Shown here: one piece after another, positions 60,686-62,236 of the stretch
Position numbering within the stretch: the stretch's first letter is position 1
How the letters are laid out: each line of letters starts with the position of its first letter
From: Candidatus Binatus sp.
GTDB lineage: Bacteria > Desulfobacterota > Binatia > Binatales > Binataceae
Direction of reading: 5' to 3'
DNA length: 64,000 bases
Assembly (NCBI RefSeq): GCF_030646925.1
Contig: NZ_JAUSKL010000066.1
Location: 1-64,000, forward strand
The notes under the pieces: generated by a model
What the model was told of the DNA's origin: nothing
Seen by the model: only the letters and a program-made list of their open reading frames with translations
Database searches by the model: none
Made by a program: the position numbers and the translations under genes

Positions 60686-62236
60686 TTACTGATTGAAGGC
60701 GGCTTCCACCTTGCGAGGTCCACTACCGGCGCGAATCGATTGCTCGAGAGTCGTTAGACGTGCTGCTACCGCGATGCTCATAGCATGAAGCTCACGCTTA
60801 TTACTTGCTCTCAATTCTTCCATCTGTGCCTTCAACTGAGTTAGCTGAGCAGATTGAGTCTGATTCGTTCTTGTCAGCTCAACGAGCTGGTTGGCTTGGT
60901 GCTCATTTCGCCTGCTCTCTTTCTGCAACTCGTTCAATAACATCGTCGATAGCATCGAGTAGCGCACCGACTGAACTTTTCCGTCCATAGCGTGCACCAC
61001 CAACTCCGGATAGATGCGTTCGACTTCTTCCGCGACCAGACCGTACTGTTTCGTGCCTAGCTGGTCGTCCTTGTACCGAAACGTTACCGGACGGAGCTTC
61101 AACAAAGCCTCGCTCGAGGCTCCCATGTCATCGATGTCGTGCTTGTAGCGGGCGGAAGACACTACTATTCCAAGGCGACCGCTGCCATTGATCACTACGT
61201 CGCTGCCGCTCACCGCGCTGCCGAGGATGCCTGCAATGTAGGTCGCAGTCTGGACGCCTTGAGTACCGATTCGAATGGTGGCTGATTCAGCCGCGATTCC
61301 CTGATTACCAATGTCAATGTTGTTCTTGCCTGTAGTCAGATTGAACCCTGAACTGAAGCCAAGAGCGATGTTGTTCTGGCCGGTAGTGTTCTTGAACAGG
61401 GCGTTCACCCCGTAGGCGTTATTGTTGTTGCCGGTCGTGTTGTTGAAGAGCGCCTGCAAACCGGTGGCAGTGTCATTGTTGCCGGTGCTGTTGGTGTAAA
61501 GCGCCACCGAGCCGGTCGCTGTGTTATTGAGGCCTGTGGTGTTGCCATAGAGCGCGCGCCGGCCGGTAGCGGTATCGTTGGTGCCGGAATCGTTGGTGAA
61601 TAGAGCGCCCGATCCGCTGGCGGTGTTGTTATAACCGGTGGTGTTGTCGAACAGTGATTGAAATCCGGCGGCCGTGTTGTCATGGCCGGTGAGGTTCCTG
61701 AAGAGCGATTGCACACCGCTGCCGGTATTTTGAAAACCAGTCGTGTTCGCCTCGAGGGCCTTCGTTCCATCGGCGGTGTTGTAGTTGCCCGTCGAGTTGA
61801 AGACCAGCGCGTTCACGCCAGTCGCGGTATTGAAGAAGCCCGAGCTGTTGCTTTGCAGAGCCGCCAATCCGGTGGCGGTGTTGTCGTGTCCGGTATTGTT
61901 GCCGAACAATGCTTGCCATCCAAGGGCAGTATTGTTTTTGCCGGTGGTATTGCTGTTGAGCGATTGAACTCCGTTCGCGGTATTGAGATTGCCGGTGGTG
62001 TTGTTTTGCAGAGCACCCGAACCGGTCGCGGTATTCTGCACGCCAGAAGTGGTGGCATTGAGCGCATTGGCGCCGATCGCGGTATCGTCAGTGCCAGTTG
62101 TGACGCTTGCTAGTGCGCCGTCGCCCAGTTTGGTGTTGGTCGAGAACGCCGACGCAATTCCGGCCCACGACAGCCCTATCACCAATGCGGTTATCGAAAA
62201 CAGGAAAGTCTTAACTGTCTGGTTCCGCTTGTTCAT
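60686..62236 (-). CDS. Repeat-rich surface protein with S74 intramolecular chaperone domain
   Basis: 516 residues. A signal peptide (1-30) precedes sixteen 17-residue repeats (34-305), pattern NTAxGxxALxxNTTGxx, as in trimeric beta-helix heads of YadA-like and phage tail proteins. VVSSARYKHDIDDMGASSEA (about 358-377) opens the peptidase S74 domain, the intramolecular chaperone that trims itself off phage tail spikes. A coiled coil follows (430-500). There is no YadA outer-membrane anchor and no PEP or LPXTG signal. It is secreted or surface-bound by an unknown route. Confidence 0.85.
   Translation of the reverse strand: MNKRNQTVKTFLFSITALVIGLSWAGIASAFSTNTKLGDGALASVTTGTDDTAIGANALNATTSGVQNTATGSGALQNNTTGNLNTANGVQSLNSNTTGKNNTALGWQALFGNNTGHDNTATGLAALQSNSSGFFNTATGVNALVFNSTGNYNTADGTKALEANTTGFQNTGSGVQSLFRNLTGHDNTAAGFQSLFDNTTGYNNTASGSGALFTNDSGTNDTATGRRALYGNTTGLNNTATGSVALYTNSTGNNDTATGLQALFNNTTGNNNNAYGVNALFKNTTGQNNIALGFSSGFNLTTGKNNIDIGNQGIAAESATIRIGTQGVQTATYIAGILGSAVSGSDVVINGSGRLGIVVSSARYKHDIDDMGASSEALLKLRPVTFRYKDDQLGTKQYGLVAEEVERIYPELVVHAMDGKVQSVRYSMLSTMLLNELQKESRRNEHQANQLVELTRTNQTQSAQLTQLKAQMEELRASNKRELHAMSIAVAARLTTLEQSIRAGSGPRKVEAAFNQ
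61322..62137 (-). repeat. Coding tandem repeat, 16 units of 51 bp
   Basis: The repeat region spans 816 bp with no insertion or deletion, so the 51-bp period is exact while the codons vary. Each unit encodes 17 residues with fixed N, G, A/S, L and T-T-G positions. The regular period with variable codons suggests selection on protein shape and not recent slippage. Confidence 0.85.

Follow-up and report, generated by a model that had tools for sequence, protein, structure and literature searches.

The window, a stretch of 64,000 nucleotides from a genome of Candidatus Binatus sp., carries on its minus strand a gene for a protein of 516 residues, which by sequence belongs to the S74-domain proteins and in which sixteen 17-residue repeats stand ahead of the S74 domain. 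We judge it fairly likely that this is a Sec-exported protein of the phage-fibre type, trimeric and self-cutting, which is released or surface-bound and is one of a repertoire of nine members. In what follows, G000 denotes this genome and G003 its nearest congener; L-numbers denote loci or stretches, and L017 is the stretch that holds the window gene. The parts of the gene are as follows.

60686..62236, minus: S74 fibre-like protein, whole ORF with a signal-peptide-like start, 516 aa (ORF and Pfam)
62147..62236, minus: signal-peptide-like N-terminus, residues 1–30, ending in ASA before an F (by eye)
61322..62137, minus: 16 units of 17 residues, residues 34–305, consensus NTATGxxALxxNTTGxx
61160..61321, minus: conserved linker, residues 306–359, IRIGTQGxQTATYIAGI...GRLGIV, up to the predicted cut between V359 and S360 (alignment; the cut is placed by comparison with MyRF and endoNF)
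60998..61159, minus: Peptidase_S74 core (Pfam and alignments)
61157..61159 and 61142..61144, minus: predicted Ser-Lys dyad, S360 and K365 respectively (alignments)
60725..60958, minus: long C-terminal helix, residues 427–504 (helix in both models; a trimeric coiled coil is expected from MyRF)

Architecture of the window protein

The Pfam family Peptidase_S74 (PF13884) matches residues 360–413 with 46.4 bits against a cut-off of 22. At E<=1, the other Pfam families in the protein amount to two weak coiled-coil matches, and the YadA anchor PF03895 is absent. The initial annotation had described repeats joined to an S74 domain with no anchor, and the ORF, the Pfam matches and the 16 × 17 units bear this architecture out. 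At the N-terminus, residues 4–22 form a helix of low pLDDT in the structure model, and comparable signal-like starts were recognised by eye in the eight other G000 copies.

An exact 51-bp period over 816 bp, with codons that vary, had also been claimed and is confirmed. All 15 spacings between units are 17 residues, there is no indel over the 816 bp, and the conserved repeat residues are each encoded by several codons. The autocorrelation at lag 17 is 0.52, compared with a maximum of 0.20 over lags 8–39 in 2000 shuffles. Between adjacent units, identity averages 52% for the protein and 59% for the DNA. These identities, taken with the variety of codons, indicate a period that is kept at the protein level, in an array that did not arise by recent duplication of DNA.

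The full-protein model, a single chain built from 18 sequences, has a block of pLDDT 90–95 at residues 121–240, with short strands every 17 residues, and a pLDDT below 50 over residues 323–403. The S74 part modelled alone reached a mean pLDDT of 60.7 and was used for the helix only. Since the pLDDT of the S74 core is below 50 in both models, modelling does not confirm the S74 fold. The repeats are predicted to form a parallel beta-solenoid, of either handedness, and the beta-helix on which the initial annotation had staked its reading is thus present as a prediction. Foldseek returned nothing from the PDB at E<=0.001. Its candidates, when re-aligned, included the upper tail protein of phage Andhra (Z 18.8 over 297 residues), the Pam1 tailspike (Z 18.2) and phi29 gp12 (Z 15.9), together with the bacterial Vag8 autotransporter (Z 18.7) and alginate epimerases (Z ~14). 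Since the solenoid also matches autotransporters and sugar epimerases, the fold is a common one and does not fix the function. Sequence searches of the PDB turned up nothing useful with the single protein and, with the alignment, one weak match to a long tail fibre. Among predicted viral structures, the best match was an FhaB-like adhesion protein of Bodo saltans virus (E 1.9e-18). The best matches in that set include giant viruses, namely Bodo saltans virus, a marseillevirus and Tupanvirus, hinting that fibres of this predicted type may also reach viruses of eukaryotes.

The putative active site reads S360-S-A-R-Y-K365 (SSARYK), with S rather than the D of SDxxxK in second place. In MyRF, the dyad S587/K592 is the equivalent of S911/K916 in phage endoNF, and S587A and K592A proteins stayed uncleaved, according to the available text of PMC8326128 (see also the available part of PMC3742443). 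The serine and lysine of the window protein are five residues apart, the same spacing as in those dyads. Both residues are invariant in 18 of 18 sequences of alignment A1, the window's included, and in 19 of 19 of alignment A2. A1 comprises the nine G000 sequences, eight of the ten from G003 and one from G023; L023 and L026, omitted from A1 and A2, both carry SSARYK. The S74 active residues, the second point on which the earlier reading had been made to depend, are therefore in place. By analogy, a cut between V359 and S360 is predicted to give pieces of 32.9 kDa (residues 31–359) and 17.8 kDa.

Neighbourhood and export

The initial annotation had further held that the gene lies outside any phage context and that a YadA anchor is lacking, and both statements stand. 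The Pfam-assigned neighbours of the window gene are SHMT and a luciferase-like monooxygenase, with type II secretion genes beyond the window's end. When ten proteins that flank four of the nine S74 loci of G000 were scanned against PHROGs, no phage structural family was matched; the matches of these ten are metabolic, ABC, ParA-like or unknown. The YadA anchor was found in none of the seven genomes of the genus, G000 included, and the E. coli control was positive. A YadA-type autotransporter was rejected on the lack of an anchor in both the protein and the seven genomes.

The type II cluster lies at C66:63580-70000 (L017:7581-14001) and holds T2SSM, L, K, an N-methyl pseudopilin and G. Its first Pfam-recognised gene, T2SSM, is ~1 kb past the monooxygenase gene, after an ORF with no Pfam match. 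The cluster's GspG is the only GspG match above cut-off in G000, and a full GspD is on contig C38. GspG and GspD have matches in 7/7 genus genomes (G000 included), above the curated cut-off in 6/7 and 5/7, respectively; over a set of 20 genomes, all 20 have GspG matches, 18 of them above cut-off. In G001, G003, G005 and G006, a single contig carries both the monooxygenase and GspG, within ~9 kb of each other; S74 genes are present in just one of these four genomes, G003. In G004, the two are split between two contigs.

The initial annotation had suggested a search of the genome for a dedicated exporter. No dedicated exporter or anchor was found in the genome, nor any conserved partner at the nine loci. 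The type II genes near the window gene were considered for the role and rejected as unproven, being equally near the monooxygenase in the S74-less G001, G005 and G006. Type II secretion exports folded proteins, and for that reason we take general type II secretion to be the likeliest, though putative, route for the protein, whose signal was read by eye.

The course of events that we propose is as follows. The phage-fibre-type protein would be exported by Sec, given the signal peptide read by eye, and three chains would meet in the periplasm through the C-terminal helix and the S74 domain. The 16-coil beta-solenoid would then fold, after which the S74 domain would cut itself off between V359 and S360, so that each chain would contribute ~33 kDa (residues 31–359) to the fibre and a piece of ~18 kDa would be discarded. 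The folded fibre would leave the cell or sit on its surface, most likely by general type II secretion, and may bind glycans or other surfaces along the faces of its repeats. Nine divergent versions at scattered sites would make up a repertoire in which the heads differ and the chaperone end is recombined between copies.

We think it unlikely that the protein is instead a structural part of the periplasm or envelope that never leaves the cell, with S74 serving only as a folding aid. The missing outer-membrane anchor, dedicated exporter and common partner gene would suit such a protein. However, a type II secretion system is present in the genome, and the presence of nine divergent copies is more easily reconciled with a repertoire than with a structural role. 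Moreover, the MAT (mosaic adhesive trimer) fibres of Bdellovibrio bacteriovorus are surface-displayed, and the available text of the MAT paper does not mention YadA at all (PMC10769870).

It is very improbable that the protein belongs, as a remnant or in working order, to a prophage, tailocin or extracellular contractile injection system (eCIS) and binds to a particle instead of being secreted on its own: S74 proteins are fibres in phages and in some eCIS operons (available part of PMC8213781), G000 does have a phage sheath gene among ORFs that by eye look like phage structural genes, and in L030, from a genome of the same class, an S74 ORF lies among phage-like-looking ORFs (by eye), but signal-peptide-like N-termini are seen by eye in 9/9 G000 copies, every copy is alone among unrelated genes, with no phage structural family in the ten neighbours from four loci, and the sheath gene is on another contig, C78 (L084, C78:68000-82977), which is without an S74 match, and recurs in 7/7 genus genomes with or without S74 genes.

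Copies, sites and the two gene ends

The nine S74 genes of G000 lie on nine contigs, and all nine products have, by eye, a signal, mostly 17-residue repeats, S74 and a charged helix-like tail. In some copies the period is interrupted by units of 16 residues or longer, and in the eight other than the window's the repeats begin soon after the signal (by eye). No neighbour is common to the nine loci; the cross-matches between neighbours, at 22–38% identity, are members of large enzyme or transporter families. Upstream DNA is shared by three copies only (L009, L010 and L016). A shared mobile element around the copies was rejected on these two grounds.

G003 is the nearest congener by DNA, its fabH being 89% identical, compared with 82–84% in the others. 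It has ten S74 matches, and ten is a lower bound on its genes, since matches also sit at the extreme ends of four more contigs: C59 and C153 break off within repeat genes, and on C102 and C53 a terminal 31–36 bp match near the S74 motif. The five other congeners gave no S74 match. In G005, a 357-residue ORF (L046:3235-4308) has a signal-like start, 17-residue repeats and a helix-like tail, joined in frame with the S74 core missing. Among the 19 located genes of G000 and G003, there is a single tandem pair, two S74 fibre genes 63 bp apart at L021:439-3738 in G003. Two further G003 genes may be pseudogenes or assembly errors: at L025:5461-7668, the signal-bearing start and the rest are in two separate ORFs, and at L026:5742-7271, the reading frame diverges from that of the family beyond RYSML, beside an unread base.

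When the nine G000 loci are compared with nine G003 stretches, neighbours are shared at three: L009/L019, L013/L023 and L016/L026. At the site of L013, the arsA-like gene is separated from fabH by 27 bp in G001, G004, G005 and G006 and by 132 bp in G002; the site is thus a clean 27-bp empty site in four congeners. G005 has a 131-bp gap at the site of L009. The lptB locus, read in L042–L045 (G001, G006, G004 and G005, in that order), is a variable site: G000 and G003 have an S74 gene there, G005 has almost nothing, and G004 and G006 carry a lipoprotein-like ORF of 95 residues. At L013:10514-10628, an intergenic element of ~50–110 bp was noted that is dispersed in the genome; it has at least 38 matches in G000, at 73–96% identity, and more in congeners. 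The window gene's own site is without a counterpart. SHMT and the monooxygenase are on different contigs in G001, G003, G004, G005 and G006, and other genes adjoin them in G001, G003, G005 and G006, the four covered on both sides. It follows that the window gene lies at a rearrangement in the G000 genome or in its assembly.

The two ends of the genes were compared by separate trees. The C-end DNA tree uses 480 columns and 20 genes. The N-end tree, anchored at the mature N-terminus, uses 426 columns and 15 of the 20 genes, omitting L011, L013, L024, L025 and L028, which have no comparable start. At the C-end, nine of the ten G003 genes form one clade (100/98), and the tenth, L024, lies outside it, grouping with G023 or G435. 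At the N-end, a single G003 clade is rejected (AU p=7e-39), the window gene groups with L021b and L022 of G003 (98/98.9), and L016 groups with L026 (90/89). When C-ends are required to pair by locus, L013/L023 is rejected (p=1.6e-6), L009/L019 is weakly rejected (p=0.038), and the syntenic L016/L026 is not rejected (p=0.076). The pairing L017/L021b gives p=0.0025, for a post hoc pair; the groups L017+L021b and L017+L021b+L022 were defined after the identities were known. Pairing is rejected for the N-ends of the syntenic L009/L019 as well (p=2.8e-8), and a common site therefore does not imply a common head.

Every window between 119 residues ahead of S360 and ~50 beyond it shows an excess of identity within a genome (permutation p 0.002–0.008; 18 genes, L024 and L028 omitted). 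Further upstream, a single window is at p=0.046 and the others are not significant; this loss of signal may come in part from repeats that are out of register. When five genes are added, support for the G003 clade is unchanged (100/98), and all the G000 and G003 genes except L024, 18 in number, fall into one group (99/95). From these trees, homogenisation of the chaperone end is clear in G003; the G000 genes form no supported C-end clade.

The conflict between the trees means that the chaperone end has apparently been recombined between loci, and gene conversion or recombination of this end between scattered copies would be its plainest cause. Independent duplications together with alignment slips in the repeats, and no recombination at all, would be an improbable account. 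Repeats can slip in register, many forks are weak in both trees, and five of the 20 rows are absent from the N-end tree. Yet the N-end rows are anchored at the mature N-terminus and still refuse one G003 clade, the C-ends of nine G003 genes hold together, the excess identity has bounds on either side of S360, and base composition affects both ends alike.

Starting from recombination of the chaperone end, we put forward a further idea as a tentative possibility, namely that a phage-type fibre has been turned by a bacterial lineage into a dispersed gene library. Copies would land cleanly between housekeeping genes, each with its own repeat head, and gene conversion would spread the shared trimerising, self-cutting end. 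If this is true, one cassette could serve the maturation of every head, and heads would be swappable between sites, a cellular counterpart of the modular host-range switching in phage tail fibres. Most descriptions of S74 domains come from phage spikes, the transcription factor MyRF and some contractile injection systems; Bdellovibrio fibres joined this list in 2024. An S74 form that stands alone, occurs in many copies, is apparently secreted and evolves in a way of its own would suggest that repertoires of phage-type fibres exist in bacteria outside the known predators. The 516-residue protein would also offer a compact model for the exit of a folded trimer with no anchor, and recombination of the chaperone end is testable from sequence alone.

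Relatives and comparison with known systems

S74 genes (PF13884) are present in 29 of 395 genomes of the phylum, G000 counted, and the nine of G000 are the highest number, the next being 8; G003, with ten, is outside this draw. Within the family, 6/41 genomes have them, as do 5/38 of the nearest relatives tried, G000 being counted in both. Twenty stretches from twelve other genomes of the phylum hold 22 ORFs that match the S74 profile. The strongest period is 17 in seven of these (faintly in L057), and 20 of the 22 have an N-terminal hydrophobic stretch by simple count. At L029:6486-9959, in G024 of the same class, a 1157-residue ORF combines collagen-like GXX triplets with 17-residue NTASG repeats, and an S74 match lies just downstream. 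The scan of genome contigs with the window protein gave a single locus, the end of a Spartobacteria contig, 66% identical in its best segment, and the 2.1 Mb searched of that Spartobacteria genome has no PF13884 match. The scan of viral contigs also gave one locus. In open-licence papers, no repeat-S74 family in bacteria was found beyond the Bdellovibrio and eCIS work.

By tblastn, 223 phage records match at E<=1e-5, ten of which align over a single stretch of 80% or more of the protein. The top-ranked is the tail protein gp37 of Roseobacter phage CRP-1, with 94% coverage and 32% identity. The 55 plasmid records are mostly E. coli phage-type fibres that match the S74 end; among them is a Hymenobacter volaticus 'tail fiber domain-containing protein', WP_245126780.1, 34.6% identical over 78% of the query. 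The repeat and S74 are shared by the Roseobacter phage fibre and the Hymenobacter plasmid protein, which supports the suggestion of the initial annotation that this is a bacterial version of a phage fibre.

CRP-1 gp37 resembles the window protein in the 17-residue period and repeat motif, the S74 end and a helix-like C-terminus, and it too has S after the motif serine (SSRRYK). In contrast, it has no signal-like start, and its gene adjoins genes annotated as tail structural and tail fibre. Fibres of phage particles are encoded with phage structural genes, which is not so for the window gene, judging by the ten neighbours from four of the nine loci. The Hymenobacter protein has, by eye, a signal-like start, 17-residue repeats, S74 with SDARFK and a helix-like tail; it differs in having another stretch between signal and repeats (by eye) and in coming from a member of the Bacteroidota. 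YadA-type trimeric autotransporters are likewise secreted repeat proteins with a coiled coil, and trimers are expected in both cases, but the window protein has S74 in place of the YadA anchor.

Of the systems described so far, the MAT fibres come closest. Among the 21 MATs of B. bacteriovorus, 13 have S74; self-cleavage at the serine is reported for one S74 MAT, the predator displays members on its surface, and one non-S74 MAT binds glycans of a prey species, as described in the available text of PMC10769870. As far as that text goes, the S74 subgroup shares with the window family a signal peptide (by eye in the latter), a beta-rich fibre (predicted in the window protein), a C-terminal S74 and many paralogues, and is not described as part of a phage particle. 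All 21 MATs have a conserved beta-rich N-terminal domain of ~130 residues right after the signal peptide, which is missing from the window protein, whose repeats start at residue 34. MATs are typically ~1,000 residues long, compared with 516 here, and the motif of the S74 MATs is SDxxxK rather than SSARYK, so that the Ser and Lys positions are kept and the Asp is not. Membership in the MAT superfamily, judged against the paper's description and not against MAT sequences, was accordingly rejected on the N-terminal domain and the SDxxxK motif. The layout is also reversed: MATs have a conserved N-terminus and varied tips, whereas the window family has varied repeats and a conserved C-end. By analogy with both systems, the window protein would be expected to act in the manner of a phage fibre and a MAT fibre, and its function would be adhesion, in a use similar to that of the MAT fibres.
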